Source of the DNA: Heliocidaris erythrogramma
Lineage: Eukaryota > Echinodermata > Echinoidea > Camarodonta > Echinometridae
Length of the DNA stretch: 64,000 bases
Direction: 5' to 3'
NCBI GenBank assembly: GCA_025617745.1
Contig: CM046870.1
Span: forward strand, 10,716,410-10,780,409
Positions 168 through 63,947 of this stretch are shown piece by piece. Made by a program: the position numbers and the translations under genes. The notes under the pieces were generated by a model. It was not told where the DNA came from, made no database searches, and saw only the letters and a list, made by a program, of their open reading frames with translations. The stretch's first letter is position 1, and each line of letters begins with the position of its first letter.

Positions 168-263
168 AAATCGAGACAACCGTGTTTACTACACGTGAAG
201 GCGTAGAAACAACAACAGTGACTACTACCACTCTAGCTCCGACTGAGATCATTGTTACCACTA
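168..263 (+). CDS. Thr-rich linker exon (B-type) upstream of the array
   Basis: A 96-nt open stretch lies between acceptor CTTCTAG and donor GTGAGT. It is phase 1 at both ends and encodes a 32-residue-equivalent Thr/Val/Glu-rich segment containing VETTTVTTTT. It sits where a B exon would lie in a unit and is followed, after a 9-kb intron, by a C microexon in frame. Its last base is A, so the shared codon with the next exon reads AGA instead of the usual GAA. It is more diverged than the array copies. It is called from splice signals and composition only. Confidence 0.65.
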
Positions 264-9200: not shown

Positions 9201-12200
9201 CAATATATAACTATCTATTTTATATAACTATCTCATCCCCTTCTTTCACATTCGACAGGAACAACCGAACAGGGTGACACTGGTACGTATGAATACCTAT
9301 TTTCAAATATTTCGATGTGATTACTTTCATTGGAAATAAAAGGAACTCTAAATGAACAATATCAGATGATAATTTCAATTGTTATGTTGCTAGAACCCAC
9401 ATTGTGAACATAGGCATTGTTGTGCAAGAGCGTGGAAGTGTAAATGAAGAATCCTAATTCGATCCCTTGAACGGAATAATTAAGACACTTCAAAGTGCAC
9501 CTAACCTGTAGAGAGAAAAGCGCATTTTAATTAACATTGTGTGTGTGTGCGCGCGCGTAGAAGTGACACAAAATGCATCGTACATATTTGTTAGAAGCAG
9601 GAGCAGACGTTTTCGTCTGGAAACGTAAGCCTACTGATTCAACGGCTTAAACGAAGAAGGAACGTCATCACACGCATCTTGTCTCTGTAAAAGGAGCAAA
9701 GCTTTGAAACAAATAACTCTAGTCTTCTCGCATCTTTTAGCTTTTTGGAAAATAGGGAGGTTGGAAAGTTGGAGCATCGCAAAGTTTATACGATTCAGTT
9801 ATCACAATTTTCTTTATGATGTATGTTCTCATGTATCACTCTGTTGCATTTCTACTGCCCTGTTGTAACAGAAACGACGACAACAAGGACGCGAACAGCA
9901 GCTGTTACTACACCCACAACATCAACCACTGAGACGACCACTATGTATACAACTACTGTGGGTCAAACACCTGGTATGATTGCCAAATGTCGTATATTTC
10001 CTTTGTGCCTTATTGAAAGCATGCTTGGTAAAAAAAAAAATGTCCATGTTTCATGCCACTACAACTGTCTGCACTGAACTGTCATGACCGTTTACACGTA
10101 CGAGGATGATACGCTTCTATGTGCCCAAGTTAGAGATCAGCGTTGAATTCGATGATAGGTACCACTTCTCCATAAAATCCACTGACCTATCTCATAATCT
10201 AGGGTTCTATAAATACTTGAACCTCATTTTGCTCTGTTGGGCTTTCTGATTTTCTATCCTACCGTACTCCGCAAACGCAAATGCGGGATAACTGGAAAGT
10301 TTCCATTGCGCTGATAATCATAAGAACTCTATACCTCTTTTCTTTTCCGTGACATTTGATATCGTGCCAGGTGACTGTGCGCTACAACTTGGCGATGGTG
10401 AAGGAGACGATCCAGTGATCACCCTTAAAACATCAGACATGTCCCAACCGACTGAAGGTCAAAACATTACACTTCAAGAAGGGAACACACCGATCACTGC
10501 TCGCTTCGGAAGTAGCGATCCTCTATACGTAGTCCGGACCACAGTGACCGCAGTCACAATCGATTTTACACAGGGAGGTATGAATTTCCCTCCCAAAGAG
10601 ATTTCTGTCACCGACATCACTCGACCAGATGGAACGAGAGCAGATAATATAACTTCAGTTAACTCAACTGCCCCAACTAGCGGAATGTTTATACTTGAGC
10701 CATTCATCATGGAACCCGTTACCAGTTTCGTCATCACCGTTGAGGATGATTCTCTCACCGAGGGCCCACTTGACGTTAAGGTCCTATTTAGAGGCTGCAT
10801 CAAATCAGGTGAATGGCACTTTCCTTCATGAAATTGTTTCCGTCGAATACGCCAGATCTGCAATACCAACTCCACAATTATAATTCTGGTCTGATACCAC
10901 GCACCAGATGTCCATGTTTCATACCACTACAACTGTCTGCACTGAATTTTTCCCACTGTCATGACCGTTTACACGTACGAGGATATAAAATAAAGTGAAA
11001 ATTCATGTACGATCCTTTGCTCCTGCTTCGCTCAGGCTATTCCAATAACTAAAACATTCCAACATTACTAGGTGAAATAATGGAGTTTTGCCTTCCCTAG
11101 ATGACAATGAATCATTTTATTTGCCTGCCAGAACTAATGATAATCATGTTTTAAAATCCTGCATTGAAATACAGAGCGTGTAACTACTGTGACGACGACA
11201 AGTGTTGCTACCACCACCACCCCAGCAACTCCTACTACTCCAACTACCACGGCAACGGAAGAAATCACGACAACAGTCACAACAGGTATACCTCTATTCC
11301 TTATCCAACTGTTCACTTTATTGTATCAAGATATGATCACTATTAATATAGTATGAAGAGATCACATGTCGAATATCAATGATGTAAGTGTGCCATTAAG
11401 TGCTATCTTCATCTTCTCTTTCTACCAACTTATTGTTGGAGATTGTAAACTTCAGTGCTGCTCCTTATTTCTTTTCTTCGGACTAAGAGAATGTTTCAAA
11501 CTTTACAAACACCCAAACTCTGACACTTCAAATTGATATGAAGCTTGAAATAATAGTCCCATCGTCTTCTCTCACATTAAGGTAATACTACAGAAATGGC
11601 GGTATAATAATATTTTCTGCAATATACCCGTACCCCATTTTATGTATCATACTGTACTCTTGTCGCTTTTCATTTCTATCCACGTGATAAAAAGAGCACG
11701 TTAGAAATGTTTCAAAGATCCAAGCTTTTGAAATTTGAAATGATTTAACATTTAAACGGGTATCTCATCACTTCTCTCATATTCAACAGAAACAACCGAA
11801 AAGGGTGACACCGGTACGTATGAATACCAAGATGCAAATATTTCAATTCGATTTAAAGTGAAAATAATAGGAACTCTAGCATCAAGCATTGTACAAATCT
11901 TTTTTTAAGGCAGAAAATGATACCTTAATTGGCCCCTTCCCAGATTAGCCTGTCAAATTTGTTAATATAAGCAATATTTGGCCCGAGTGTGAATGTGTAA
12001 ATCAGGAATTCAAAATTCAATACATTGAACGGAAATATTGGACGCTTTAAAGCGTACCGAAGGCTTAGCTGTAAGCAAAATGAGCAATATACAAAACATT
12101 TGTTAACAATAGTTATTTCTTGTTTAGAATTGAAGTAAAAGGCATCTTGCATGTTCCAAGTTTTTACATTTCGAGTAGAACGTGTTGTCTGGAAAAGTAC

Positions 12201-15200: not shown

Positions 15201-18200
15201 TAATAACATAAATTCAAGTGATAACATACACCTTAGCTTGAAGTCTCTTGGATGATATGCTTCTATGTGCCCAAGTTAGAGATCAGCGTTGAATTCGATG
15301 ATAGGTAGCCACTTCTCCATAAAATCCACTGACCTATCTCATAATCTAGGGCTCTATAAATACTTGAACCTCATTTTGCTCTGTTGGGTTTTCTGATTTT
15401 CTATCCTACCGTACTCCGCAAACGCAAATGCGGGATAACTGGAAAGTTTCCATTGCGCTGATAATCATAAGAACTCTATACCTCTTTTCTTTTCCGTGAC
15501 ATTTGATATCGTGCCAGGTGACTGTGCGCTACAACTTGGCGATGGTGAAGGAGACGATCCAGTGATCACCCTTAAAACATCAGACATGTCCCAACCGACT
15601 GAAGGTCAAAACATTACACTTCAACAAGGGAACACACCGATCACTGCTCGCTTCGGAAGTAGCGATCCTCTATACGTAGTCCGGACCACAGTGACCGCAG
15701 TCACAATCGATTTTACACAGGGAGGTATGAATTTCCCTCCCAAAGAGATTTCTGTCACCGACATCACTCGACCAGATGGAACGAGAGCAGATAATATAAC
15801 TTCAGTTAACTCAACTGCCCCAACTAGCGGAATGTTTATACTTGAGCCATTCATCATGGAACCCGTTACCAGTTTCGTCATCACCGTTGAGGATGATTCT
15901 CTCACCGAGGGCCCAGTTGACGTTAAGGTCCTATTTAGAGGCTGCATCAAATCAGGTGAATGGCACTTTCCTTCATGAAATTGTTTCCGTCGAATACGCC
16001 AGATCTGCAATACCAACTCCACAATTATAATTCTGGTCTGATACCACGCACCAGATGTCCATGTTTCATACCACTACAACTGTCTGCACTGAATTTTTCC
16101 CACTGTCATGACCGTTTACACGTACGAGGATATAAAATAAAGTGAAAATTCATGTACGATCCTTTGCTCCTGCTTCGCTCAGGCTATTCCAATAACTAAA
16201 ACATTCCAACATTACTAGGTGAAATAATGGAGTTTTGCCTTCCCTAGACGACAATGAATCATTTTATTTGCCTGCCAGAACTAATGATAATCATGTTTTA
16301 AAATCCTGCATTGAAATACAGAGCGTGTAACTACTGTGACGACGACAAGTGTTGCTACCACCACCACCCCAGCAACTCCTACTACTCCAACTACCACGGC
16401 AACGGAAGAAATCACGACAACAGTCACAACAGGTATACCTCTATTCCTTATCCAACTGTTCACTTTATTGTATCAAGATATGATCACTATTAATATAGTA
16501 TGAAGAGATCACATGTCGAATATCAATGATGTAAGTGTGCCATTAAGTGCTATCTTCATCTTCTCTTTCTACCAACTTATTGTTGGAGATTGTAAACTTC
16601 AGTGCTGCTCCTTATTTCTTTTCTTCGGACTAAGAGAATGTTTCAAACTTTACAAACACCCAAACTCTGACACTTCAAATTGATATGAAGCTTGAAATAA
16701 TAGCCCCATCGTCTTCTCTCACATTAAGGTAATACTACAGAAATGGCGGTATAATAATATTTTCTGCAATATACCCCTACCCCATTTTATGTATCATACT
16801 GTACTCTTGTCGCTTTTCATTTCTTTCCTCGTGATATAAAGAGCAAGTTAGAAATGTTTCAAAGATCCAAACTTTTCAATCTTGAAATGATTTAACATTT
16901 TAACGGCTATCTCATCACTTCTCTCATATTCAACAGAAACAACCGAAAAGGGTGACACCGGTACGTATGAATACCAAGATGCAAATATTTCAATTCGATT
17001 TAAAGTGAAAATAATAGGAACTCTAGCATCAAGCATTGTACAAATCTTTTTTTAAGGCGGAAAATGATACCTTAATTGGCCCCTTCCCAGATCAGCCTGT
17101 CAAATTTGTTAATATAAGCAATATTTGGCCAGAGTGTGAATGTGTAAATCAGGAATTCAAATTCAATACATTGAACGGAAATATTGGACGCTTTAAAGCG
17201 TACCGAAGGCTTAGCTGTAAGCAAAATGTGCCATATACAAAACATTGGTTAACAATAGTTATTTCTTGTTTAGAATTGAAGTAAAAGGCATCTTGCATGT
17301 TCCAAGTTTTTACATTTCGAGTAGAACGTGTTGTCTGGAAAAGTACTGATTCAAAGGCTTTCACAAAGAATTGATGTCATATTACGCATGAGTATGGTGT
17401 CTGCAACAGAAGCTAAGGTTTTCGTGCATCATTAAAGGCATGTTGCACTCATAAGATTTGGGAAGTGGGGAGGTTGGGATGTTGGACCGTCGCGAAATTT
17501 ATAAAGCTCAGCAGTCAAAATTACTCTAATTTCTTTAAACAACATGTTTCCAAAGATCTTCAGCTGATATTTCTATTGATGGCTTTTCTTTCATTTGTAT
17601 TGCCCTCTTATCACAGAAACTACGACCACTAAGGTCCGAACAACGGCTGTGACTACACCCACAACATCGACCGCTGAGGTTACCACAATGACAACAACAA
17701 CTATGGGCCAAACATCGCCTGGTATGAATGACAGCTTCTGTGAAGTTTTCGTCTACCTCATTACAATTATGACTAATAACATAAATTCAAGTGATAACAT
17801 ACACCTCAGCTTTTCAGTCTCTTGGATGATATGCTTCTATGTGCCCAAGTTAGAGATCAGCGTTGAATTCGATGATATGTAGCCACTTCTCCATATAATC
17901 CACAGACCTATCTCATAATCTAGGGCTCTATAAATACTTGAACCTCATTTTGCTCTGTTGGGTTTTCTGATTTTCTATCCTACCGTACTCCGCAAACGCA
18001 AATGCGGGATAACTGGAAAGTTTCCATTGCGCTGATAATCATAAGAACTCTATACCTCTTTTCTTTTCCGTGACATTTGATATCGTGCCAGGTGACTGTG
18101 CGCTACAACTTGGCGATGGTGAAGGAGACGATCCAGTGATCACCCTTAAAACATCAGACATGTCCCAACCGACTGAAGGTCAAAACATTACACTTCAACA

Positions 18201-21200
18201 AGGGAACACACCGATCACTGCTCGCTTCGGAAGTAGCGATCCTCTATACGTAGTCCGGACCACAGTGACCGCAGTCACAATCGATTTTACACAGGGAGGT
18301 ATGAATTTCCCTCCCAAAGAGATTTCTGTCACCGACATCACTCGACCAGATGGAACGAGAGCAGATAATATAACTTCAGTTAACTCAACTGCCCCAACTA
18401 GCGGAATGTTTATACTTGAGCCATTCATCATGGAACCCGTTACCAGTTTCGTCATCACCGTTGAGGATGATTCTCTCACCGAGGGCCCAGTTGACGTTAA
18501 GGTCCTATTTAGAGGCTGCATCAAATCAGGTGAATGGCACTTTCCTTCATGAAATTGTTTCCGTCGAATACGCCAGATCTGCAATACCAACTCCACAATT
18601 ATAATTCTGGTCTGATACCACGCACCAGATGTCCATGTTTCATACCACTACAACTGTCTGCACTGAATTTTTCCCACTGTCATGACCGTTTACACGTACG
18701 AGGATATAAAATAAAGTGAAAATTCATGTACGATCCTTTGCTCCTGCTTCGCTCAGGCTATTCCAATAACTAAAACATTCCAACATTACTAGGTGAAATA
18801 ATGGAGTTTTGCCTTCCCTAGACGACAATGAATCATTTTATTTGCCTGCCAGAACTAATGATAATCATGTTTTAAAATCCTGCATTGAAATACAGAGCGT
18901 GTAACTACTGTGACGACGACAAGTGTTGCTACCACCACCACCCCAGCAACTCCTACTACTCCAACTACCACGGCAACGGAAGAAATCACGACAACAGTCA
19001 CAACAGGTATACCTCTATTCCTTATCCAACTGTTCACTTTATTGTATCAAGATATGATCACTATTAATATAGTATGAAGAGATCACATGTCGAATATCAA
19101 TGATGTAAGTGTGCCATTAAGTGCTATCTTCATCTTCTCTTTCTACCAACTTATTGTTGGAGATTGTAAACTTCAGTGCTGCTCCTTATTTCTTTTCTTC
19201 GGACTAAGAGAATGTTTCAAACTTTACAAACACCCAAACTCTGACACTTCAAATTGATATGAAGCTTGAAATAATAGCCCCATCGTCTTCTCTCACATTA
19301 AGGTAATACTACAGAAATGGCGGTATAATAATATTTTCTGCAATATACCCCTACCCCATTTTATGTATCATACTGTACTCTTGTCGCTTTTCATTTCTTT
19401 CCTCGTGATATAAAGAGCAAGTTAGAAATGTTTCAAAGATCCAAACTTTTCAATCTTGAAATGATTTAACATTTTAACGGCTATCTCATCACTTCTCTCA
19501 TATTCAACAGAAACAACCGAAAAGGGTGACACCGGTACGTATGAATACCAAGATGCAAATATTTCAATTCGATTTAAAGTGAAAATAATAGGAACTCTAG
19601 CATCAAGCATTGTACAAATCTTTTTTTAAGGCGGAAAATGATACCTTAATTGGCCCCTTCCCAGATCAGCCTGTCAAATTTGTTAATATAAGCAATATTT
19701 GGCCAGAGTGTGAATGTGTAAATCAGGAATTCAAATTCAATACATTGAACGGAAATATTGGACGCTTTAAAGCGTACCGAAGGCTTAGCTGTAAGCAAAA
19801 TGTGCCATATACAAAACATTGGTTAACAATAGTTATTTCTTGTTTAGAATTGAAGTAAAAGGCATCTTGCATGTTCCAAGTTTTTACATTTCGAGTAGAA
19901 CGTGTTGTCTGGAAAAGTACTGATTCAAAGGCTTTCACAAAGAATTGATGTCATATTACGCATGAGTATGGTGTCTGCAACAGAAGCTAAGGTTTTCGTG
20001 CATCATTAAAGGCATGTTGCACTCATAAGATTTGGGAAGTGGGGAGGTTGGGATGTTGGACCGTCGCGAAATTTATAAAGCTCAGCAGTCAAAATTACTC
20101 TAATTTCTTTAAACAACATGTTTCCAAAGATCTTCAGCTGATATTTCTATTGATGGCTTTTCTTTCATTTGTATTGCCCTCTTATCACAGAAACTACGAC
20201 CACTAAGGTCCGAACAACGGCTGTGACTACACCCACAACATCGACCGCTGAGGTTACCACAATGACAACAACAACTATGGGCCAAACATCGCCTGGTATG
20301 AATGACAGCTTCTGTGAAGTTTTCGTCTACCTCATTACAATTATGACTAATAACATAAATTCAAGTGATAACATACACCTCAGCTTTTCAGTCTCTTGGA
20401 TGATATGCTTCTATGTGCCCAAGTTAGAGATCAGCGTTGAATTCGATGATATGTAGCCACTTCTCCATATAATCCACAGACCTATCTCATAATCTAGGGC
20501 TCTATAAATACTTGAACCTCATTTTGCTCTGTTGGGTTTTCTGATTTTCTATCCTACCGTACTCCGCAAACGCAAATGCGGGATAACTGGAAAGTTTCCA
20601 TTGCGCTGATAATCATAAGAACTCTATACCTCTTTTCTTTTCCGTGACATTTGATATCGTGCCAGGTGACTGTGCGCTACAACTTGGCGATGGTGAAGGA
20701 GACGATCCAGTGATCACCCTTAAAACATCAGACATGTCCCAACCGACTGAAGGTCAAAACATTACACTTCAACAAGGGAACACACCGATCACTGCTCGCT
20801 TCGGAAGTAGCGATCCTCTATACGTAGTCCGGACCACAGTGACCGCAGTCACAATCGATTTTACACAGGGAGGTATGAATTTCCCTCCCAAAGAGATTTC
20901 TGTCACCGACATCACTCGACCAGATGGAACGAGAGCAGATAATATAACTTCAGTTAACTCAACTGCCCCAACTAGCGGAATGTTTATACTTGAGCCATTC
21001 ATCATGGAACCCGTTACCAGTTTCGTCATCACCGTTGAGGATGATTCTCTCACCGAGGGCCCAGTTGACGTTAAGGTCCTATTTAGAGGCTGCATCAAAT
21101 CAGGTGAATGGCACTTTCCTTCATGAAATTGTTTCCGTCGAATACGCCAGATCTGCAATACCAACTCCACAATTATAATTCTGGTCTGATACCACGCACC

Positions 21201-24200
21201 AGATGTCCATGTTTCATACCACTACAACTGTCTGCACTGAATTTTTCCCACTGTCATGACCGTTTACACGTACGAGGATATAAAATAAAGTGAAAATTCA
21301 TGTACGATCCTTTGCTCCTGCTTCGCTCAGGCTATTCCAATAACTAAAACATTCCAACATTACTAGGTGAAATAATGGAGTTTTGCCTTCCCTAGACGAC
21401 AATGAATCATTTTATTTGCCTGCCAGAACTAATGATAATCATGTTTTAAAATCCTGCATTGAAATACAGAGCGTGTAACTACTGTGACGACGACAAGTGT
21501 TGCTACCACCACCACCCCAGCAACTCCTACTACTCCAACTACCACGGCAACGGAAGAAATCACGACAACAGTCACAACAGGTATACCTCTATTCCTTATC
21601 CAACTGTTCACTTTATTGTATCAAGATATGATCACTATTAATATAGTATGAAGAGATCACATGTCGAATATCAATGATGTAAGTGTGCCATTAAGTGCTA
21701 TCTTCATCTTCTCTTTCTACCAACTTATTGTTGGAGATTGTAAACTTCAGTGCTGCTCCTTATTTCTTTTCTTCGGACTAAGAGAATGTTTCAAACTTTA
21801 CAAACACCCAAACTCTGACACTTCAAATTGATATGAAGCTTGAAATAATAGCCCCATCGTCTTCTCTCACATTAAGGTAATACTACAGAAATGGCGGTAT
21901 AATAATATTTTCTGCAATATACCCCTACCCCATTTTATGTATCATACTGTACTCTTGTCGCTTTTCATTTCTTTCCTCGTGATATAAAGAGCAAGTTAGA
22001 AATGTTTCAAAGATCCAAACTTTTCAATCTTGAAATGATTTAACATTTTAACGGCTATCTCATCACTTCTCTCATATTCAACAGAAACAACCGAAAAGGG
22101 TGACACCGGTACGTATGAATACCAAGATGCAAATATTTCAATTCGATTTAAAGTGAAAATAATAGGAACTCTAGCATCAAGCATTGTACAAATCTTTTTT
22201 TAAGGCGGAAAATGATACCTTAATTGGCCCCTTCCCAGATCAGCCTGTCAAATTTGTTAATATAAGCAATATTTGGCCAGAGTGTGAATGTGTAAATCAG
22301 GAATTCAAATTCAATACATTGAACGGAAATATTGGACGCTTTAAAGCGTACCGAAGGCTTAGCTGTAAGCAAAATGTGCCATATACAAAACATTGGTTAA
22401 CAATAGTTATTTCTTGTTTAGAATTGAAGTAAAAGGCATCTTGCATGTTCCAAGTTTTTACATTTCGAGTAGAACGTGTTGTCTGGAAAAGTACTGATTC
22501 AAAGGCTTTCACAAAGAATTGATGTCATATTACGCATGAGTATGGTGTCTGCAACAGAAGCTAAGGTTTTCGTGCATCATTAAAGGCATGTTGCACTCAT
22601 AAGATTTGGGAAGTGGGGAGGTTGGGATGTTGGACCGTCGCGAAATTTATAAAGCTCAGCAGTCAAAATTACTCTAATTTCTTTAAACAACATGTTTCCA
22701 AAGATCTTCAGCTGATATTTCTATTGATGGCTTTTCTTTCATTTGTATTGCCCTCTTATCACAGAAACTACGACCACTAAGGTCCGAACAACGGCTGTGA
22801 CTACACCCACAACATCGACCGCTGAGGTTACCACAATGACAACAACAACTATGGGCCAAACATCGCCTGGTATGAATGACAGCTTCTGTGAAGTTTTCGT
22901 CTACCTCATTACAATTATGACTAATAACATAAATTCAAGTGATAACATACACCTCAGCTTTTCAGTCTCTTGGATGATATGCTTCTATGTGCCCAAGTTA
23001 GAGATCAGCGTTGAATTCGATGATATGTAGCCACTTCTCCATATAATCCACAGACCTATCTCATAATCTAGGGCTCTATAAATACTTGAACCTCATTTTG
23101 CTCTGTTGGGTTTTCTGATTTTCTATCCTACCGTACTCCGCAAACGCAAATGCGGGATAACTGGAAAGTTTCCATTGCGCTGATAATCATAAGAACTCTA
23201 TACCTCTTTTCTTTTCCGTGACATTTGATATCGTGCCAGGTGACTGTGCGCTACAACTTGGCGATGGTGAAGGAGACGATCCAGTGATCACCCTTAAAAC
23301 ATCAGACATGTCCCAACCGACTGAAGGTCAAAACATTACACTTCAACAAGGGAACACACCGATCACTGCTCGCTTCGGAAGTAGCGATCCTCTATACGTA
23401 GTCCGGACCACAGTGACCGCAGTCACAATCGATTTTACACAGGGAGGTATGAATTTCCCTCCCAAAGAGATTTCTGTCACCGACATCACTCGACCAGATG
23501 GAACGAGAGCAGATAATATAACTTCAGTTAACTCAACTGCCCCAACTAGCGGAATGTTTATACTTGAGCCATTCATCATGGAACCCGTTACCAGTTTCGT
23601 CATCACCGTTGAGGATGATTCTCTCACCGAGGGCCCAGTTGACGTTAAGGTCCTATTTAGAGGCTGCATCAAATCAGGTGAATGGCACTTTCCTTCATGA
23701 AATTGTTTCCGTCGAATACGCCAGATCTGCAATACCAACTCCACAATTATAATTCTGGTCTGATACCACGCACCAGATGTCCATGTTTCATACCACTACA
23801 ACTGTCTGCACTGAATTTTTCCCACTGTCATGACCGTTTACACGTACGAGGATATAAAATAAAGTGAAAATTCATGTACGATCCTTTGCTCCTGCTTCGC
23901 TCAGGCTATTCCAATAACTAAAACATTCCAACATTACTAGGTGAAATAATGGAGTTTTGCCTTCCCTAGACGACAATGAATCATTTTATTTGCCTGCCAG
24001 AACTAATGATAATCATGTTTTAAAATCCTGCATTGAAATACAGAGCGTGTAACTACTGTGACGACGACAAGTGTTGCTACCACCACCACCCCAGCAACTC
24101 CTACTACTCCAACTACCACGGCAACGGAAGAAATCACGACAACAGTCACAACAGGTATACCTCTATTCCTTATCCAACTGTTCACTTTATTGTATCAAGA

Positions 24201-36200: not shown

Positions 36201-39200
36201 AAACATTACACTTCAACAAGGGAACACACCGATCACTGCTCGCTTCGGAAGTAGCGATCCTCTATACGTAGTCCGGACCACAGTGACCGCAGTCACAATC
36301 GATTTTACACAGGGAGGTATGAATTTCCCTCCCAAAGAGATTTCTGTCACCGACATCACTCGACCAGATGGAACGAGAGCAGATAATATAACTTCAGTTA
36401 ACTCAACTGCCCCAACTAGCGGAATGTTTATACTTGAGCCATTCATCATGGAACCCGTTACCAGTTTCGTCATCACCGTTGAGGATGATTCTCTCACCGA
36501 GGGCCCAGTTGACGTTAAGGTCCTATTTAGAGGCTGCATCAAATCAGGTGAATGGCACTTTCCTTCATGAAATTGTTTCCGTCGAATACGCCAGATCTGC
36601 AATACCAACTCCACAATTATAATTCTGGTCTGATACCACGCACCAGATGTCCATGTTTCATACCACTACAACTGTCTGCACTGAATTTTTCCCACTGTCA
36701 TGACCGTTTACACGTACGAGGATATAAAATAAAGTGAAAATTCATGTACGATCCTTTGCTCCTGCTTCGCTCAGGCTATTCCAATAACTAAAACATTCCA
36801 ACATTACTAGGTGAAATAATGGAGTTTTGCCTTCCCTAGACGACAATGAATCATTTTATTTGCCTGCCAGAACTAATGATAATCATGTTTTAAAATCCTG
36901 CATTGAAATACAGAGCGTGTAACTACTGTGACGACGACAAGTGTTGCTACCACCACCACCCCAGCAACTCCTACTACTCCAACTACCACGGCAACGGAAG
37001 AAATCACGACAACAGTCACAACAGGTATACCTCTATTCCTTATCCAACTGTTCACTTTATTGTATCAAGATATGATCACTATTAATATAGTATGAAGAGA
37101 TCACATGTCGAATATCAATGATGTAAGTGTGCCATTAAGTGCTATCTTCATCTTCTCTTTCTACCAACTTATTGTTGGAGATTGTAAACTTCAGTGCTGC
37201 TCCTTATTTCTTTTCTTCGGACTAAGAGAATGTTTCAAACTTTACAAACACCCAAACTCTGACACTTCAAATTGATATGAAGCTTGAAATAATAGCCCCA
37301 TCGTCTTCTCTCACATTAAGGTAATACTACAGAAATGGCGGTATAATAATATTTTCTGCAATATACCCCTACCCCATTTTATGTATCATACTGTACTCTT
37401 GTCGCTTTTCATTTCTTTCCTCGTGATATAAAGAGCAAGTTAGAAATGTTTCAAAGATCCAAACTTTTCAATCTTGAAATGATTTAACATTTTAACGGCT
37501 ATCTCATCACTTCTCTCATATTCAACAGAAACAACCGAAAAGGGTGACACCGGTACGTATGAATACCAAGATGCAAATATTTCAATTCGATTTAAAGTGA
37601 AAATAATAGGAACTCTAGCATCAAGCATTGTACAAATCTTTTTTTAAGGCGGAAAATGATACCTTAATTGGCCCCTTCCCAGATCAGCCTGTCAAATTTG
37701 TTAATATAAGCAATATTTGGCCAGAGTGTGAATGTGTAAATCAGGAATTCAAATTCAATACATTGAACGGAAATATTGGACGCTTTAAAGCGTACCGAAG
37801 GCTTAGCTGTAAGCAAAATGTGCCATATACAAAACATTGGTTAACAATAGTTATTTCTTGTTTAGAATTGAAGTAAAAGGCATCTTGCATGTTCCAAGTT
37901 TTTACATTTCGAGTAGAACGTGTTGTCTGGAAAAGTACTGATTCAAAGGCTTTCACAAAGAATTGATGTCATATTACGCATGAGTATGGTGTCTGCAACA
38001 GAAGCTAAGGTTTTCGTGCATCATTAAAGGCATGTTGCACTCATAAGATTTGGGAAGTGGGGAGGTTGGGATGTTGGACCGTCGCGAAATTTATAAAGCT
38101 CAGCAGTCAAAATTACTCTAATTTCTTTAAACAACATGTTTCCAAAGATCTTCAGCTGATATTTCTATTGATGGCTTTTCTTTCATTTGTATTGCCCTCT
38201 TATCACAGAAACTACGACCACTAAGGTCCGAACAACGGCTGTGACTACACCCACAACATCGACCGCTGAGGTTACCACAATGACAACAACAACTATGGGC
38301 CAAACATCGCCTGGTATGAATGACAGCTTCTGTGAAGTTTTCGTCTACCTCATTACAATTATGACTAATAACATAAATTCAAGTGATAACATACACCTCA
38401 GCTTTTCAGTCTCTTGGATGATATGCTTCTATGTGCCCAAGTTAGAGATCAGCGTTGAATTCGATGATATGTAGCCACTTCTCCATATAATCCACAGACC
38501 TATCTCATAATCTAGGGCTCTATAAATACTTGAACCTCATTTTGCTCTGTTGGGTTTTCTGATTTTCTATCCTACCGTACTCCGCAAACGCAAATGCGGG
38601 ATAACTGGAAAGTTTCCATTGCGCTGATAATCATAAGAACTCTATACCTCTTTTCTTTTCCGTGACATTTGATATCGTGCCAGGTGACTGTGCGCTACAA
38701 CTTGGCGATGGTGAAGGAGACGATCCAGTGATCACCCTTAAAACATCAGACATGTCCCAACCGACTGAAGGTCAAAACATTACACTTCAACAAGGGAACA
38801 CACCGATCACTGCTCGCTTCGGAAGTAGCGATCCTCTATACGTAGTCCGGACCACAGTGACCGCAGTCACAATCGATTTTACACAGGGAGGTATGAATTT
38901 CCCTCCCAAAGAGATTTCTGTCACCGACATCACTCGACCAGATGGAACGAGAGCAGATAATATAACTTCAGTTAACTCAACTGCCCCAACTAGCGGAATG
39001 TTTATACTTGAGCCATTCATCATGGAACCCGTTACCAGTTTCGTCATCACCGTTGAGGATGATTCTCTCACCGAGGGCCCAGTTGACGTTAAGGTCCTAT
39101 TTAGAGGCTGCATCAAATCAGGTGAATGGCACTTTCCTTCATGAAATTGTTTCCGTCGAATACGCCAGATCTGCAATACCAACTCCACAATTATAATTCT

Positions 39201-42200
39201 GGTCTGATACCACGCACCAGATGTCCATGTTTCATACCACTACAACTGTCTGCACTGAATTTTTCCCACTGTCATGACCGTTTACACGTACGAGGATATA
39301 AAATAAAGTGAAAATTCATGTACGATCCTTTGCTCCTGCTTCGCTCAGGCTATTCCAATAACTAAAACATTCCAACATTACTAGGTGAAATAATGGAGTT
39401 TTGCCTTCCCTAGACGACAATGAATCATTTTATTTGCCTGCCAGAACTAATGATAATCATGTTTTAAAATCCTGCATTGAAATACAGAGCGTGTAACTAC
39501 TGTGACGACGACAAGTGTTGCTACCACCACCACCCCAGCAACTCCTACTACTCCAACTACCACGGCAACGGAAGAAATCACGACAACAGTCACAACAGGT
39601 ATACCTCTATTCCTTATCCAACTGTTCACTTTATTGTATCAAGATATGATCACTATTAATATAGTATGAAGAGATCACATGTCGAATATCAATGATGTAA
39701 GTGTGCCATTAAGTGCTATCTTCATCTTCTCTTTCTACCAACTTATTGTTGGAGATTGTAAACTTCAGTGCTGCTCCTTATTTCTTTTCTTCGGACTAAG
39801 AGAATGTTTCAAACTTTACAAACACCCAAACTCTGACACTTCAAATTGATATGAAGCTTGAAATAATAGCCCCATCGTCTTCTCTCACATTAAGGTAATA
39901 CTACAGAAATGGCGGTATAATAATATTTTCTGCAATATACCCCTACCCCATTTTATGTATCATACTGTACTCTTGTCGCTTTTCATTTCTTTCCTCGTGA
40001 TATAAAGAGCAAGTTAGAAATGTTTCAAAGATCCAAACTTTTCAATCTTGAAATGATTTAACATTTTAACGGCTATCTCATCACTTCTCTCATATTCAAC
40101 AGAAACAACCGAAAAGGGTGACACCGGTACGTATGAATACCAAGATGCAAATATTTCAATTCGATTTAAAGTGAAAATAATAGGAACTCTAGCATCAAGC
40201 ATTGTACAAATCTTTTTTTAAGGCGGAAAATGATACCTTAATTGGCCCCTTCCCAGATCAGCCTGTCAAATTTGTTAATATAAGCAATATTTGGCCAGAG
40301 TGTGAATGTGTAAATCAGGAATTCAAATTCAATACATTGAACGGAAATATTGGACGCTTTAAAGCGTACCGAAGGCTTAGCTGTAAGCAAAATGTGCCAT
40401 ATACAAAACATTGGTTAACAATAGTTATTTCTTGTTTAGAATTGAAGTAAAAGGCATCTTGCATGTTCCAAGTTTTTACATTTCGAGTAGAACGTGTTGT
40501 CTGGAAAAGTACTGATTCAAAGGCTTTCACAAAGAATTGATGTCATATTACGCATGAGTATGGTGTCTGCAACAGAAGCTAAGGTTTTCGTGCATCATTA
40601 AAGGCATGTTGCACTCATAAGATTTGGGAAGTGGGGAGGTTGGGATGTTGGACCGTCGCGAAATTTATAAAGCTCAGCAGTCAAAATTACTCTAATTTCT
40701 TTAAACAACATGTTTCCAAAGATCTTCAGCTGATATTTCTATTGATGGCTTTTCTTTCATTTGTATTGCCCTCTTATCACAGAAACTACGACCACTAAGG
40801 TCCGAACAACGGCTGTGACTACACCCACAACATCGACCGCTGAGGTTACCACAATGACAACAACAACTATGGGCCAAACATCGCCTGGTATGAATGACAG
40901 CTTCTGTGAAGTTTTCGTCTACCTCATTACAATTATGACTAATAACATAAATTCAAGTGATAACATACACCTCAGCTTTTCAGTCTCTTGGATGATATGC
41001 TTCTATGTGCCCAAGTTAGAGATCAGCGTTGAATTCGATGATATGTAGCCACTTCTCCATATAATCCACAGACCTATCTCATAATCTAGGGCTCTATAAA
41101 TACTTGAACCTCATTTTGCTCTGTTGGGTTTTCTGATTTTCTATCCTACCGTACTCCGCAAACGCAAATGCGGGATAACTGGAAAGTTTCCATTGCGCTG
41201 ATAATCATAAGAACTCTATACCTCTTTTCTTTTCCGTGACATTTGATATCGTGCCAGGTGACTGTGCGCTACAACTTGGCGATGGTGAAGGAGACGATCC
41301 AGTGATCACCCTTAAAACATCAGACATGTCCCAACCGACTGAAGGTCAAAACATTACACTTCAACAAGGGAACACACCGATCACTGCTCGCTTCGGAAGT
41401 AGCGATCCTCTATACGTAGTCCGGACCACAGTGACCGCAGTCACAATCGATTTTACACAGGGAGGTATGAATTTCCCTCCCAAAGAGATTTCTGTCACCG
41501 ACATCACTCGACCAGATGGAACGAGAGCAGATAATATAACTTCAGTTAACTCAACTGCCCCAACTAGCGGAATGTTTATACTTGAGCCATTCATCATGGA
41601 ACCCGTTACCAGTTTCGTCATCACCGTTGAGGATGATTCTCTCACCGAGGGCCCAGTTGACGTTAAGGTCCTATTTAGAGGCTGCATCAAATCAGGTGAA
41701 TGGCACTTTCCTTCATGAAATTGTTTCCGTCGAATACGCCAGATCTGCAATACCAACTCCACAATTATAATTCTGGTCTGATACCACGCACCAGATGTCC
41801 ATGTTTCATACCACTACAACTGTCTGCACTGAATTTTTCCCACTGTCATGACCGTTTACACGTACGAGGATATAAAATAAAGTGAAAATTCATGTACGAT
41901 CCTTTGCTCCTGCTTCGCTCAGGCTATTCCAATAACTAAAACATTCCAACATTACTAGGTGAAATAATGGAGTTTTGCCTTCCCTAGACGACAATGAATC
42001 ATTTTATTTGCCTGCCAGAACTAATGATAATCATGTTTTAAAATCCTGCATTGAAATACAGAGCGTGTAACTACTGTGACGACGACAAGTGTTGCTACCA
42101 CCACCACCCCAGCAACTCCTACTACTCCAACTACCACGGCAACGGAAGAAATCACGACAACAGTCACAACAGGTATACCTCTATTCCTTATCCAACTGTT

Positions 42201-45200
42201 CACTTTATTGTATCAAGATATGATCACTATTAATATAGTATGAAGAGATCACATGTCGAATATCAATGATGTAAGTGTGCCATTAAGTGCTATCTTCATC
42301 TTCTCTTTCTACCAACTTATTGTTGGAGATTGTAAACTTCAGTGCTGCTCCTTATTTCTTTTCTTCGGACTAAGAGAATGTTTCAAACTTTACAAACACC
42401 CAAACTCTGACACTTCAAATTGATATGAAGCTTGAAATAATAGCCCCATCGTCTTCTCTCACATTAAGGTAATACTACAGAAATGGCGGTATAATAATAT
42501 TTTCTGCAATATACCCCTACCCCATTTTATGTATCATACTGTACTCTTGTCGCTTTTCATTTCTTTCCTCGTGATATAAAGAGCAAGTTAGAAATGTTTC
42601 AAAGATCCAAACTTTTCAATCTTGAAATGATTTAACATTTTAACGGCTATCTCATCACTTCTCTCATATTCAACAGAAACAACCGAAAAGGGTGACACCG
42701 GTACGTATGAATACCAAGATGCAAATATTTCAATTCGATTTAAAGTGAAAATAATAGGAACTCTAGCATCAAGCATTGTACAAATCTTTTTTTAAGGCGG
42801 AAAATGATACCTTAATTGGCCCCTTCCCAGATCAGCCTGTCAAATTTGTTAATATAAGCAATATTTGGCCAGAGTGTGAATGTGTAAATCAGGAATTCAA
42901 ATTCAATACATTGAACGGAAATATTGGACGCTTTAAAGCGTACCGAAGGCTTAGCTGTAAGCAAAATGTGCCATATACAAAACATTGGTTAACAATAGTT
43001 ATTTCTTGTTTAGAATTGAAGTAAAAGGCATCTTGCATGTTCCAAGTTTTTACATTTCGAGTAGAACGTGTTGTCTGGAAAAGTACTGATTCAAAGGCTT
43101 TCACAAAGAATTGATGTCATATTACGCATGAGTATGGTGTCTGCAACAGAAGCTAAGGTTTTCGTGCATCATTAAAGGCATGTTGCACTCATAAGATTTG
43201 GGAAGTGGGGAGGTTGGGATGTTGGACCGTCGCGAAATTTATAAAGCTCAGCAGTCAAAATTACTCTAATTTCTTTAAACAACATGTTTCCAAAGATCTT
43301 CAGCTGATATTTCTATTGATGGCTTTTCTTTCATTTGTATTGCCCTCTTATCACAGAAACTACGACCACTAAGGTCCGAACAACGGCTGTGACTACACCC
43401 ACAACATCGACCGCTGAGGTTACCACAATGACAACAACAACTATGGGCCAAACATCGCCTGGTATGAATGACAGCTTCTGTGAAGTTTTCGTCTACCTCA
43501 TTACAATTATGACTAATAACATAAATTCAAGTGATAACATACACCTCAGCTTTTCAGTCTCTTGGATGATATGCTTCTATGTGCCCAAGTTAGAGATCAG
43601 CGTTGAATTCGATGATATGTAGCCACTTCTCCATATAATCCACAGACCTATCTCATAATCTAGGGCTCTATAAATACTTGAACCTCATTTTGCTCTGTTG
43701 GGTTTTCTGATTTTCTATCCTACCGTACTCCGCAAACGCAAATGCGGGATAACTGGAAAGTTTCCATTGCGCTGATAATCATAAGAACTCTATACCTCTT
43801 TTCTTTTCCGTGACATTTGATATCGTGCCAGGTGACTGTGCGCTACAACTTGGCGATGGTGAAGGAGACGATCCAGTGATCACCCTTAAAACATCAGACA
43901 TGTCCCAACCGACTGAAGGTCAAAACATTACACTTCAACAAGGGAACACACCGATCACTGCTCGCTTCGGAAGTAGCGATCCTCTATACGTAGTCCGGAC
44001 CACAGTGACCGCAGTCACAATCGATTTTACACAGGGAGGTATGAATTTCCCTCCCAAAGAGATTTCTGTCACCGACATCACTCGACCAGATGGAACGAGA
44101 GCAGATAATATAACTTCAGTTAACTCAACTGCCCCAACTAGCGGAATGTTTATACTTGAGCCATTCATCATGGAACCCGTTACCAGTTTCGTCATCACCG
44201 TTGAGGATGATTCTCTCACCGAGGGCCCAGTTGACGTTAAGGTCCTATTTAGAGGCTGCATCAAATCAGGTGAATGGCACTTTCCTTCATGAAATTGTTT
44301 CCGTCGAATACGCCAGATCTGCAATACCAACTCCACAATTATAATTCTGGTCTGATACCACGCACCAGATGTCCATGTTTCATACCACTACAACTGTCTG
44401 CACTGAATTTTTCCCACTGTCATGACCGTTTACACGTACGAGGATATAAAATAAAGTGAAAATTCATGTACGATCCTTTGCTCCTGCTTCGCTCAGGCTA
44501 TTCCAATAACTAAAACATTCCAACATTACTAGGTGAAATAATGGAGTTTTGCCTTCCCTAGACGACAATGAATCATTTTATTTGCCTGCCAGAACTAATG
44601 ATAATCATGTTTTAAAATCCTGCATTGAAATACAGAGCGTGTAACTACTGTGACGACGACAAGTGTTGCTACCACCACCACCCCAGCAACTCCTACTACT
44701 CCAACTACCACGGCAACGGAAGAAATCACGACAACAGTCACAACAGGTATACCTCTATTCCTTATCCAACTGTTCACTTTATTGTATCAAGATATGATCA
44801 CTATTAATATAGTATGAAGAGATCACATGTCGAATATCAATGATGTAAGTGTGCCATTAAGTGCTATCTTCATCTTCTCTTTCTACCAACTTATTGTTGG
44901 AGATTGTAAACTTCAGTGCTGCTCCTTATTTCTTTTCTTCGGACTAAGAGAATGTTTCAAACTTTACAAACACCCAAACTCTGACACTTCAAATTGATAT
45001 GAAGCTTGAAATAATAGCCCCATCGTCTTCTCTCACATTAAGGTAATACTACAGAAATGGCGGTATAATAATATTTTCTGCAATATACCCCTACCCCATT
45101 TTATGTATCATACTGTACTCTTGTCGCTTTTCATTTCTTTCCTCGTGATATAAAGAGCAAGTTAGAAATGTTTCAAAGATCCAAACTTTTCAATCTTGAA

Positions 45201-48200
45201 ATGATTTAACATTTTAACGGCTATCTCATCACTTCTCTCATATTCAACAGAAACAACCGAAAAGGGTGACACCGGTACGTATGAATACCAAGATGCAAAT
45301 ATTTCAATTCGATTTAAAGTGAAAATAATAGGAACTCTAGCATCAAGCATTGTACAAATCTTTTTTTAAGGCGGAAAATGATACCTTAATTGGCCCCTTC
45401 CCAGATCAGCCTGTCAAATTTGTTAATATAAGCAATATTTGGCCAGAGTGTGAATGTGTAAATCAGGAATTCAAATTCAATACATTGAACGGAAATATTG
45501 GACGCTTTAAAGCGTACCGAAGGCTTAGCTGTAAGCAAAATGTGCCATATACAAAACATTGGTTAACAATAGTTATTTCTTGTTTAGAATTGAAGTAAAA
45601 GGCATCTTGCATGTTCCAAGTTTTTACATTTCGAGTAGAACGTGTTGTCTGGAAAAGTACTGATTCAAAGGCTTTCACAAAGAATTGATGTCATATTACG
45701 CATGAGTATGGTGTCTGCAACAGAAGCTAAGGTTTTCGTGCATCATTAAAGGCATGTTGCACTCATAAGATTTGGGAAGTGGGGAGGTTGGGATGTTGGA
45801 CCGTCGCGAAATTTATAAAGCTCAGCAGTCAAAATTACTCTAATTTCTTTAAACAACATGTTTCCAAAGATCTTCAGCTGATATTTCTATTGATGGCTTT
45901 TCTTTCATTTGTATTGCCCTCTTATCACAGAAACTACGACCACTAAGGTCCGAACAACGGCTGTGACTACACCCACAACATCGACCGCTGAGGTTACCAC
46001 AATGACAACAACAACTATGGGCCAAACATCGCCTGGTATGAATGACAGCTTCTGTGAAGTTTTCGTCTACCTCATTACAATTATGACTAATAACATAAAT
46101 TCAAGTGATAACATACACCTCAGCTTTTCAGTCTCTTGGATGATATGCTTCTATGTGCCCAAGTTAGAGATCAGCGTTGAATTCGATGATATGTAGCCAC
46201 TTCTCCATATAATCCACAGACCTATCTCATAATCTAGGGCTCTATAAATACTTGAACCTCATTTTGCTCTGTTGGGTTTTCTGATTTTCTATCCTACCGT
46301 ACTCCGCAAACGCAAATGCGGGATAACTGGAAAGTTTCCATTGCGCTGATAATCATAAGAACTCTATACCTCTTTTCTTTTCCGTGACATTTGATATCGT
46401 GCCAGGTGACTGTGCGCTACAACTTGGCGATGGTGAAGGAGACGATCCAGTGATCACCCTTAAAACATCAGACATGTCCCAACCGACTGAAGGTCAAAAC
46501 ATTACACTTCAACAAGGGAACACACCGATCACTGCTCGCTTCGGAAGTAGCGATCCTCTATACGTAGTCCGGACCACAGTGACCGCAGTCACAATCGATT
46601 TTACACAGGGAGGTATGAATTTCCCTCCCAAAGAGATTTCTGTCACCGACATCACTCGACCAGATGGAACGAGAGCAGATAATATAACTTCAGTTAACTC
46701 AACTGCCCCAACTAGCGGAATGTTTATACTTGAGCCATTCATCATGGAACCCGTTACCAGTTTCGTCATCACCGTTGAGGATGATTCTCTCACCGAGGGC
46801 CCAGTTGACGTTAAGGTCCTATTTAGAGGCTGCATCAAATCAGGTGAATGGCACTTTCCTTCATGAAATTGTTTCCGTCGAATACGCCAGATCTGCAATA
46901 CCAACTCCACAATTATAATTCTGGTCTGATACCACGCACCAGATGTCCATGTTTCATACCACTACAACTGTCTGCACTGAATTTTTCCCACTGTCATGAC
47001 CGTTTACACGTACGAGGATATAAAATAAAGTGAAAATTCATGTACGATCCTTTGCTCCTGCTTCGCTCAGGCTATTCCAATAACTAAAACATTCCAACAT
47101 TACTAGGTGAAATAATGGAGTTTTGCCTTCCCTAGACGACAATGAATCATTTTATTTGCCTGCCAGAACTAATGATAATCATGTTTTAAAATCCTGCATT
47201 GAAATACAGAGCGTGTAACTACTGTGACGACGACAAGTGTTGCTACCACCACCACCCCAGCAACTCCTACTACTCCAACTACCACGGCAACGGAAGAAAT
47301 CACGACAACAGTCACAACAGGTATACCTCTATTCCTTATCCAACTGTTCACTTTATTGTATCAAGATATGATCACTATTAATATAGTATGAAGAGATCAC
47401 ATGTCGAATATCAATGATGTAAGTGTGCCATTAAGTGCTATCTTCATCTTCTCTTTCTACCAACTTATTGTTGGAGATTGTAAACTTCAGTGCTGCTCCT
47501 TATTTCTTTTCTTCGGACTAAGAGAATGTTTCAAACTTTACAAACACCCAAACTCTGACACTTCAAATTGATATGAAGCTTGAAATAATAGCCCCATCGT
47601 CTTCTCTCACATTAAGGTAATACTACAGAAATGGCGGTATAATAATATTTTCTGCAATATACCCCTACCCCATTTTATGTATCATACTGTACTCTTGTCG
47701 CTTTTCATTTCTTTCCTCGTGATATAAAGAGCAAGTTAGAAATGTTTCAAAGATCCAAACTTTTCAATCTTGAAATGATTTAACATTTTAACGGCTATCT
47801 CATCACTTCTCTCATATTCAACAGAAACAACCGAAAAGGGTGACACCGGTACGTATGAATACCAAGATGCAAATATTTCAATTCGATTTAAAGTGAAAAT
47901 AATAGGAACTCTAGCATCAAGCATTGTACAAATCTTTTTTTAAGGCGGAAAATGATACCTTAATTGGCCCCTTCCCAGATCAGCCTGTCAAATTTGTTAA
48001 TATAAGCAATATTTGGCCAGAGTGTGAATGTGTAAATCAGGAATTCAAATTCAATACATTGAACGGAAATATTGGACGCTTTAAAGCGTACCGAAGGCTT
48101 AGCTGTAAGCAAAATGTGCCATATACAAAACATTGGTTAACAATAGTTATTTCTTGTTTAGAATTGAAGTAAAAGGCATCTTGCATGTTCCAAGTTTTTA

Positions 48201-51200
48201 CATTTCGAGTAGAACGTGTTGTCTGGAAAAGTACTGATTCAAAGGCTTTCACAAAGAATTGATGTCATATTACGCATGAGTATGGTGTCTGCAACAGAAG
48301 CTAAGGTTTTCGTGCATCATTAAAGGCATGTTGCACTCATAAGATTTGGGAAGTGGGGAGGTTGGGATGTTGGACCGTCGCGAAATTTATAAAGCTCAGC
48401 AGTCAAAATTACTCTAATTTCTTTAAACAACATGTTTCCAAAGATCTTCAGCTGATATTTCTATTGATGGCTTTTCTTTCATTTGTATTGCCCTCTTATC
48501 ACAGAAACTACGACCACTAAGGTCCGAACAACGGCTGTGACTACACCCACAACATCGACCGCTGAGGTTACCACAATGACAACAACAACTATGGGCCAAA
48601 CATCGCCTGGTATGAATGACAGCTTCTGTGAAGTTTTCGTCTACCTCATTACAATTATGACTAATAACATAAATTCAAGTGATAACATACACCTCAGCTT
48701 TTCAGTCTCTTGGATGATATGCTTCTATGTGCCCAAGTTAGAGATCAGCGTTGAATTCGATGATATGTAGCCACTTCTCCATATAATCCACAGACCTATC
48801 TCATAATCTAGGGCTCTATAAATACTTGAACCTCATTTTGCTCTGTTGGGTTTTCTGATTTTCTATCCTACCGTACTCCGCAAACGCAAATGCGGGATAA
48901 CTGGAAAGTTTCCATTGCGCTGATAATCATAAGAACTCTATACCTCTTTTCTTTTCCGTGACATTTGATATCGTGCCAGGTGACTGTGCGCTACAACTTG
49001 GCGATGGTGAAGGAGACGATCCAGTGATCACCCTTAAAACATCAGACATGTCCCAACCGACTGAAGGTCAAAACATTACACTTCAACAAGGGAACACACC
49101 GATCACTGCTCGCTTCGGAAGTAGCGATCCTCTATACGTAGTCCGGACCACAGTGACCGCAGTCACAATCGATTTTACACAGGGAGGTATGAATTTCCCT
49201 CCCAAAGAGATTTCTGTCACCGACATCACTCGACCAGATGGAACGAGAGCAGATAATATAACTTCAGTTAACTCAACTGCCCCAACTAGCGGAATGTTTA
49301 TACTTGAGCCATTCATCATGGAACCCGTTACCAGTTTCGTCATCACCGTTGAGGATGATTCTCTCACCGAGGGCCCAGTTGACGTTAAGGTCCTATTTAG
49401 AGGCTGCATCAAATCAGGTGAATGGCACTTTCCTTCATGAAATTGTTTCCGTCGAATACGCCAGATCTGCAATACCAACTCCACAATTATAATTCTGGTC
49501 TGATACCACGCACCAGATGTCCATGTTTCATACCACTACAACTGTCTGCACTGAATTTTCCCACTGTCATGACCGTTTACACGTACGAGGATATAAAATA
49601 AAGTGAAAATTCATGTACGATCCTTTGCTCCTGCTTCGCTCAGGCTATTCCAATAACTAAAACATTCCAACATTACTAGGTGAAATAATGGAGTTTTGCC
49701 TTCCCTAGACGACAATGAATCATTTTATTTGCCTGCCAGAACTAATGATAATCATGTTTTAAAATCCTGCATTGAAATACAGAGCGTGTAACTACTGTGA
49801 CGACGACAAGTGTTGCTACCACCACCACCCCAGCAACTCCTACTACTCCAACTACCACGGCAACGGAAGAAATCACGACAACAGTCACAACAGGTATACC
49901 TCTATTCCTTATCCAACTGTTCACTTTATTGTATCAAGATATGATCACTATTAATATAGTATGAAGAGATCACATGTCGAATATCAATGATGTAAGTGTG
50001 CCATTAAGTGCTATCTTCATCTTCTCTTTCTACCAACTTATTTTTGGAGATTGTAAACTTCAGTGCTGCTCCTTATTTCTTTTCTTCGGACTAAGAGAAT
50101 GTTTCAAACTTTACAAACACCCAAACTCTGACACTTCAAATTGATATGAAGCTTGAAATAATAGCCCCATCGTCTTCTCTCACATTAAGGTAATACTACA
50201 GAAATGGCGGTATAATAATATTTTCTGCAATATACCCCTACCCCATTTTATGTATCATACTGTACTCTTGTCGCTTTTCATTTCTTTCCTCGTGATATAA
50301 AGAGCAAGTTAGAAATGTTTCAAAGATCCAAACTTTTGAATTTTGAAATGGTTTAACATATTAACGGCTATCTCATCACTTCTCTCATATTCAACAGAAA
50401 CAACCGAAAAGGGTGACACCGGTACGTATGAATACCAAGATGCAAATATTTCAGTTCGATTTAAAGTGAAAATAATAGGAACTCTAGCATCAAGCATTGT
50501 ACAAATCTTTTTTTAAGGCGGAAAATGATACCTTAATTGGCCCCTTCCCAGATCAGCCTGTCAAATTTGTTAATATAAGCAATATTTGGCAAGAGTGTGA
50601 ATATGTAAATCAGGAATTCAAATTCAATACATTGAACGGAAATATTGGACGCTTTAAAGTGTATCGAAGGCTTAGCTGTAAGCAAAATGCTCCCCACACT
50701 TTGAAAGGCGCTTTGTCAATGCCTTAATTATTAAAAACCGATGTCTAATCCATACATATACATGGAAGAGAGGACCCCCTCCTCATCCATACACCCAACA
50801 CACTCTCACATACATACACACATAAATATCCAGATCCACTCGTTTCTCAACTCCTTTTTGGAGACCTATATAATGCTTGCCCTTTATCTCAAGTTCCAAC
50901 AATCGTCCATTTGGGGGAGCTGAGGGGTAAGTTGTGCGGGGAGGGGGGGGGGGGGGGGGGCGATTGTCGTAGGGGGTAGTTGTTAGTTTAGGGGGGGGGG
51001 GTTGGTAGTTGCCCGGATACGGGCTTATAAATTGCTGTGAGAAATTTGTTTTTGTTTTTATTTTGGGGTGGGATATCAAGCCCTCTATATAGAAATATTT
51101 TCATAATATGTGATTTTAGTAAAGTACAATTTATTTATCTACCGTTCTTACAGTGTGCCCCTGTTTATGGCCATGGGCGTGGGAATGAAGTATGCCCTCC

Positions 51201-62728: not shown

Positions 62729-62858
62729 GTTTGTAGCAAGCGAAGAAGCTTGACTGGGGAGGAATTTTTAATTTGTAAACAAATCTTTCGGCATATTACT
62801 CCCAGTGTTAAAGATCGTATGCTCGATCTGTAATGAAAAACACAAGTCAGAAAAAATT

Positions 62859-62931
62859 GGAACCAGCGGGATTCGAACCTGTCATCTACTGCTAACCGGG
62901 CAGCGACTTAACCACCAGGCTATTCTGGTTC
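62859..62931 (-). repeat. tRNA-like 73-nt sequence, left arm copy 1
   Basis: Acceptor arms GAACCAG and CTGGTTC pair over all 7 bp. It has a B box GGTTCGAATCC (exact consensus), an A-box-like TAGCCTGGTGG, and an anticodon-like stem GCTGC/GCAGT. Against a real tRNA: the loop lacks the T before the anticodon position, the D stem does not pair, and the T stem has a mismatch. Confidence 0.6.
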
Positions 62932-63147
62932 ACGGCCAAGTCACGACGAACTAGAATCAAATACCCAAGATCCTCTTCTTTCTGACTCATTAATATTCAA
63001 ACGGTCCGCCGTAGACAATGGTTAGTAAGCGAAGAAGCTTGACTGGGGAGGAATTTTTAATTTGTAAACAAATCTTTCGGCATATTACTCCCAGTGTTAA
63101 AGATCGTATGCTCGATCTGTAATGAAAAACACAAGTCAGAAAAAATT

Positions 63148-63220
63148 GGAACCAGCGGGATTCGAACCTGTCATCTACTGCTAACCGGGCAGCGACTTAA
63201 CCACCAGGCTATTCTGGTTC
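63148..63220 (-). repeat. tRNA-like sequence, left arm copy 2
   Basis: Same sequence as 62859-62931, 289 bp downstream. Confidence 0.6.
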
Positions 63221-63329
63221 ACGGCCAAGTCACGACGAACTAGAATCAAATACCCAAGATCCTCTTCTTTCTGACTCATTAATATTCAAACGGTCCGCCG
63301 TAGACAATGGTTAGTAAGCGAAGAAGCTG

Positions 63330-63369
63330 CGGTTAGCAGTAGATGACAGGTTCGAATCCCGCTGGTTCC
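63330..63369 (+). repeat. tRNA-like sequence, 3' half at the inversion junction
   Basis: It starts within the anticodon stem (GGTTAGCAGT), directly at the point where the array flips. The 5' half is missing. Confidence 0.6.
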
Positions 63370-63585
63370 AATTTTTTCTGACTTGTGTTTTTCATTACAG
63401 ATCGAGCATACGATCTTTAACACTGGGAGTAATATGCCGAAAGATTTGTTTACAAATTAAAAATTCCTCCCCAGTCAAGCTTCTTCGCTTACTAACCATT
63501 GTCTACGGCGGACCGTTTGAATATTAATGAGTCAGAAAGAAGAGGATCTTGGGTATTTGATTCTAGTTCGTCGTGACTTGGCCGT

Positions 63586-63658
63586 GAACCAGAATAGCCT
63601 GGTGGTTAAGTCGCTGCCCGGTTAGCAGTAGATGACAGGTTCGAATCCCGCTGGTTCC
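63586..63658 (+). repeat. tRNA-like sequence, right arm copy 1
   Basis: Reverse-oriented full 73-nt copy with both Pol III box motifs. Confidence 0.6.
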
Positions 63659-63874: not shown

Positions 63875-63947
63875 GAACCAGAATAGCCTGGTGGTTAAGT
63901 CGCTGCCCGGTTAGCAGTAGATGACAGGTTCGAATCCCGCTGGTTCC
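63875..63947 (+). repeat. tRNA-like sequence, right arm copy 2
   Basis: Full copy, 289 bp after the previous one, at the window edge. Confidence 0.6.

Follow-up and report, generated by a model that had tools for sequence, protein, structure and literature searches.

What kind of gene carries a tandem array of whole multi-exon units, introns included, and what protein would such a gene make? This question is raised by a 64,000-bp stretch of the genome of the sea urchin Heliocidaris erythrogramma (hereafter, the window; C18:10,716,410-10,780,409, in an assembly of 1.06 Gb and 26 contigs), in which 16 units of 2,574 bp, each comprising four exons denoted D, A, B, and C, occupy positions 9872..50421 of the + strand. 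From the sequence evidence, we consider it probable that this array is the middle part of one huge gene for a secreted, polymerising (gel-forming) mucin-type protein, extending over ~318 kb (C18:10.499-10.817 Mb).

Results

The distance between successive A exons in the array is 2,574 bp at 14 of the 15 steps and 2,573 bp at the remaining one. Exons of 105 bp (D), 438 bp (A), 111 bp (B), and 24 bp (C) jointly contribute 226 residues per unit, and all four are in phase 1-1, preceded by AG and followed by GT, so that any number of units preserves the reading frame. In unit 4, which serves as the reference, the Thr-rich exon D is located at 17617..17721, exon A, encoding the folded module, at 18092..18529, the Thr-rich exon B at 18896..19006, and the micro-exon C at 19511..19534, all on the + strand. 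The AG acceptor is present in all 64 array exons, and GT occupies the homologous donor position in 63 of them; the divergent D exon of unit 1 (9872..9973, + strand, 102 bp) is one codon short and has its own GT donor. The joined frame is free of stops over 3,616 codons (3,615 with the real first D exon), with Thr accounting for 27.5% across the array. Thus, the spacing, splice-site, and frame checks bear out the original prediction of a four-exon unit repeated 16 times in an open frame, with correct coordinates and exon count, as well as its estimates of 226 residues per unit and more than 3,600 residues from the array.

A whole-genome family search yielded C8 matches at C18:10499070, 10505932, and 10528249 and, among the matches listed, VWD matches at C18:10503256 and 10526780, all on the + strand and upstream of the window. 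In addition, 100 kb of DNA was examined on each side of the window, where exon borders are mostly unmodelled (positions in kb are given in window coordinates, upstream positions being negative). In the downstream flank, an open reading frame (ORF) at 100.2-100.6 kb matches the cystine-knot family PF00007 (E 2.1e-10), and this match (10816657-10816947) is the sole one to the cystine knot on C18 between 10 and 11 Mb. Thr-rich open stretches, only some of which were verified as exons, extend from -88 kb to +91 kb. Taken together, same-strand VWD and C8 domains upstream, Thr-rich repeats in the middle, and a cystine knot at the C-terminal end point to the layout of a gel-forming mucin over ~318 kb. 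The earlier proposal of a coding array in a mucin-type setting, in which a folded module bracketed by Cys residues takes turns with Thr-rich linkers, is supported, and the flanks add to it the VWD, C8, TIL, and cystine-knot matches as well as more Thr-rich arrays.

The array in the window is accompanied by others. Upstream, an array with a 2.7-kb period contains a marker exon five times between -99.8 and -86.3 kb, with one step doubled; it reaches to about -84.6 kb on one side and extends past the examined DNA on the other, and its units differ by 5, 9, and 13 bases. A TIL match at -73.5 kb is followed by an array with a 4.0-kb period, in which a Thr-rich exon recurs seven times (-49.6 to -25.4 kb) and adjacent units show 40, 8, 6, 2, and 1 base differences plus gaps. 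Closer to the window, two Cys-rich ORFs (-10.3 and -8.5 kb) and a long Thr/Pro ORF (-4.1 kb) precede the apparent halves of a further module (-2.7 and -1.1 kb); the half at -2.7 kb matches F5/8 type C below threshold (E 0.19). Downstream, an array of 7-12-kb units extends from +55 to +88 kb, followed by Thr-rich ORFs. At least four tandem arrays, the 16-unit array included, share what appears to be a single gene, an extent that the original prediction understated.

Older copies of the array exons provide evidence of coding. Four sets of D-, B-, and C-like copies are found downstream at 55-88 kb, with 86-99% mutual identity among pieces longer than 400 bp. In ungapped comparisons with 60-bp flanks, the array D exon is 74-77% identical to the four older D copies (55.5, 67.7, 76.2, and 83.3 kb; the first at 55503..55607) within the exon versus 27-47% in the flanks, and the older C copies, two downstream and one upstream, show 71-88% identity within the exon, falling to 28-53% on either side. 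In BLAST comparisons, similarity to D and C stops near the splice sites; some matches to B run into the intron. Within the window, C-like exons are located immediately 5' of the array (9259..9282) and downstream of it (57100..57123 and 60572..60595), and longer B-like exons, with borders judged by eye, are present at 56179..56388, 56598..56810, and 59912..60118, the last with an upstream intron that is still array-like. Further upstream, a Thr-rich candidate exon in phase 1-1 (EIETTVFTTREGVETTTVTTTTLAPTEIIVTT) lies at 168..263; all these exons are on the + strand. Exon A was not seen among the older downstream copies in the portion inside the window. A non-coding satellite is ruled out by the open exons, the intact splice sites, and the conservation of D and C above their flanks.

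These data also bear on the possibility that the array and its Thr-rich neighbours form a separate gene, or a dead cluster, with neither the VWD/C8 exons nor the cystine knot joined to it. The interval was read in part, and further VWD/C8 sets on the same strand upstream (C18:10251837-10269618 and C18:10397434-10418695, that is, 10.25-10.27 and 10.40-10.42 Mb), which are probably neighbouring related genes, suggest several such genes side by side. However, given that each of the 64 array exons has an open frame and intact splice sites, that exons are better kept than flanks in the older D and C copies, and that the stretch contains a single cystine knot, we regard this possibility as very unlikely.

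The folded module encoded by exon A has relatives elsewhere. Seven exon-sized ORFs (147-205 residues) from other ENA contigs match A with 46-56% identity over 97-100% of its length, and the motif GC(I/V)(K/T)(S/T)G at the 3' end is kept in all seven, four of which terminate exactly there; splice borders are presumably common to A and these relatives. There is less certainty about the 5' border of A: in P0001, P0002, and P0004, three of the seven, the resemblance to the window also extends 5' of the predicted acceptor, where the window reads VTFDIVP, and this upstream likeness could be either a conserved acceptor region or additional coding sequence. Within the same genome, matches to A are restricted to the array, both with a DNA query (16 of 16 scored candidates) and with the homolog P0003 as query (21 scored candidates, 16 of them matching at E up to 1). 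In a search for long homologs, no candidate out of 276 scored with an E-value of 1 or below.

Module A is predicted to adopt a discoidin-like jelly-roll fold. C142 is invariant in all nine aligned rows and C2 in all seven rows that reach it, and the two residues are predicted to form a disulfide that brackets the module; a Cys pair at both module ends, as seen here, is a feature of F5/8 type C (discoidin) domains. A Pfam scan of nine module A sequences (E up to 10, with filters dropping most matches above 0.1) listed eight families. The best match of the A module in the window, Pgp3_N (E 0.088), was not accepted, and Gp77 (best E 4.5e-4) was rejected because only three of the nine members match it and the fold search points elsewhere. 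No match to SEA, kringle, or another accepted Pfam domain was listed for exon A or its homologs, and the best E-values in a PDB sequence search were 0.25 and 0.54.

In a rival reading, the product would be a secreted adhesive or cohesive glycoprotein (a glue of the tube feet or epidermis) instead of a barrier mucin, with the discoidin-like modules binding surfaces or glycans. VWD and discoidin (FA58C) domains recur in the temporary adhesives of a sea urchin, a sea star, a flatworm, a limpet, and a cnidarian, as described in PMC10057474 and PMC12472103. The long Thr-rich arrays, the C8 matches, and the terminal cystine knot are nevertheless a closer fit to the gel-forming layout, which makes a glue unlikely; the adhesive and mucin readings overlap.

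A feature absent from the original prediction is the identity of units 4-15 (17617..48504, + strand): these 12 copies match base for base across 30,888 bp, in introns as well as exons. Differences between units are confined to units 1-3 and unit 16, and in the latter mostly to its last third: up to its C exon (48505..50421, + strand), unit 16 has consensus exons, two small intron differences, and a diverged last third. Unequal crossing-over or gene conversion leaves such a pattern, in which the interior is homogenised and the edges diverge. If the identity is real, the byte-identical units would derive from a very recent common ancestor. The assembler can mislead in byte-identical repeats, and 16 units is therefore an estimate. 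An inflated or deflated array, with a different and perhaps far smaller true number of units, would account for the 30,888 bp of perfect identity. However, units 1-3 and 16 are distinct from the remaining ones, the adjacent 4-kb array retains small differences between successive units (40, 8, 6, 2, and 1 mismatches plus gaps), and the window contains no N, all of which render an assembly error of this kind quite unlikely. In its in-frame, near-identical tandem units with introns, the region resembles multi-exon coding variable number tandem repeats (VNTRs) of the LPA KIV-2 class; it is likely a coding VNTR, whose copy number, put at 16 by the one assembly, may differ between individuals.

Other features

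Elsewhere in the same genome, a multi-exon VWD-C8-TIL tandem array, presumably FCGBP/zonadhesin-like, is located on the minus strand at C9:6012313-6063224, with 21 equal VWD rows among the matches listed. Its spacing is mostly 2,574-2,575 bp, near that of the window unit, without sequence similarity to it, and the equal period may be a coincidence. A 289-bp satellite occupies 62734-64000 and continues to about window +66,930 in two opposite orientations that switch near 63,329, the compared copies being 99.7-100% identical. A 15/16-bp minisatellite (GGACAACTACCCCCT and its reverse complement) is present in opposite orientations at 2701-3293 and 5028-5442, about 1.7 kb apart, and a GACGT-rich 160-bp unit is repeated about twice at 51930-52240 with 94% matches. 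Two successive ORFs with a ~32-residue repeat (ALAGDDSHTANACPAEVMQGCSGPSVDKTSQR), apparently a separate gene, are located at window +134,812 to +136,101. Retrotransposon-like ORFs (polyprotein, integrase, and reverse-transcriptase pieces, judged by eye) were noted at window +118 to +123 kb and +145 to +147 kb and, on the minus strand, at 5734-6087. No tRNAs or Rfam matches were found in the window.

Discussion

Several points weigh against a single gel-forming mucin gene with discoidin-like modules. The gene model was read from genomic DNA alone, and the proposed unity bridges two segments outside the DNA read: C18:10.506-10.526 Mb for the most part, and 10.528-10.616 Mb in full. The third C8 match (10528249) contains one TAG inside the matched stretch, and the Cys-rich ORFs tested at -8.5, +92.3, and +98.8 kb gave no significant Pfam match. 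For module A, two of the five AlphaFold models have a mean predicted local distance difference test score (pLDDT) of just 62.5 and 59.1, and the E-value order of the Foldseek matches places virus capsid jelly rolls, at lower TM-score, over CBM32 and FVIII chains. The F5/8 type C family PF00754 is not among the eight families listed in the Pfam scan, and we thus refer to the module as discoidin-like without assigning it to a family. When profiles of A were compared with those of two other modules, from the 4-kb array and from -2.7 kb, neither comparison was significant; both were underpowered, as these are half-domains. The assembler could partly account for the 12 byte-identical units. A weaker point is that the differences among D exons are nearly unbiased by codon position (8/6/10 to 8/6/13 at positions 1/2/3), which favours a conserved exon block over fine protein constraint.

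For the gel-forming mucin that we favour, we infer a single transcript, along with glycosylation, polymerisation, and ligand binding. MUC2-type mucins dimerise through the cystine knot and assemble via their VWD/C8 regions; similarly, disulfides formed by the N-terminal VWD/C8 assemblies and by the C-terminal cystine knot would join chains into a polymer. Along each chain, O-glycosylated Thr-rich linkers (D, B, and C) would alternate with discoidin-like modules (A), each of which, recurring every 226 residues, would probably serve as a compact spacer or as a sticky point for glycan or protein contacts. In vertebrate gel-forming mucins, CysD modules interrupt the Thr/Ser regions where discoidin-like modules sit here, and module A may have a comparable role. 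Whole units would be gained or lost by unequal crossing-over or gene conversion with the frame intact, and this turnover, combined with the shared phase 1-1, would produce the homogenised interior and diverged edges. A rather doubtful extension is a self-binding mucin, in which A would bind glycans on the protein's own Thr-rich linkers to form non-covalent cross-links, and gel stiffness would be adjusted in each individual by how many units are present in several independent tandem arrays of one gene, all continually homogenised together with their introns.

The original prediction considered expansion by multi-exon units unusual for mucins. This was overstated, as the multi-exon organisation itself has precedents, and the closest systems in gene design are MUC16, chicken Muc13, and, outside mucins, LPA KIV-2. 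MUC16 (CA125) is likewise a giant mucin with a folded module in the repeat, and five exons encode each repeat (PMC3431878), but that module is SEA, none of which was listed for exon A or its homologs, and MUC16 has a predicted transmembrane region. In chicken Muc13, mucin repeats are also distributed over exons, one each (PMC1552070), although they are 20 residues long and the protein is transmembrane. LPA KIV-2 shares near-identical multi-exon units with introns, in this case a 5.5-kb two-exon unit in 1 to more than 40 copies (PMC4378929), but encodes kringle domains and is not a mucin. In parts, the closest systems are gel-forming mucins (PMC9080433) and echinoderm FA58C/VWD adhesives (PMC10057474, PMC12472103). 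MUC2, MUC5AC, MUC5B, and MUC6 share VWD and C8 upstream, a Thr-rich middle, and a final cystine knot (layout in PMC9080433), whereas the middle here is divided among numerous small phase-1 exons, of which this array by itself supplies 64, in several tandem arrays. Sea urchin Nectin is also a secreted glycoprotein with tandem discoidin (FA58C) domains, but has 984 residues and six domains, and a mucin array is not mentioned in the excerpted text of PMC10057474. Among the papers listed in literature searches, we found no description of the gene itself or of the combination seen here, in which one locus joins discoidin-like modules and at least four tandem arrays to the layout of a gel-forming mucin.

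To conclude, the locus suggests a route to a giant mucin through amplified multi-exon cassettes, with a folded module in each, rather than one enlarged repeat exon. At least four tandem arrays reside in an apparent single gene, and the same genome contains an additional one in an unrelated VWD-C8-TIL locus. If confirmed, the gene would offer a natural series for relating module copy number to the mechanics of mucus or glue, and a clean system for understanding how arrays of phase-1 exons expand yet remain identical.
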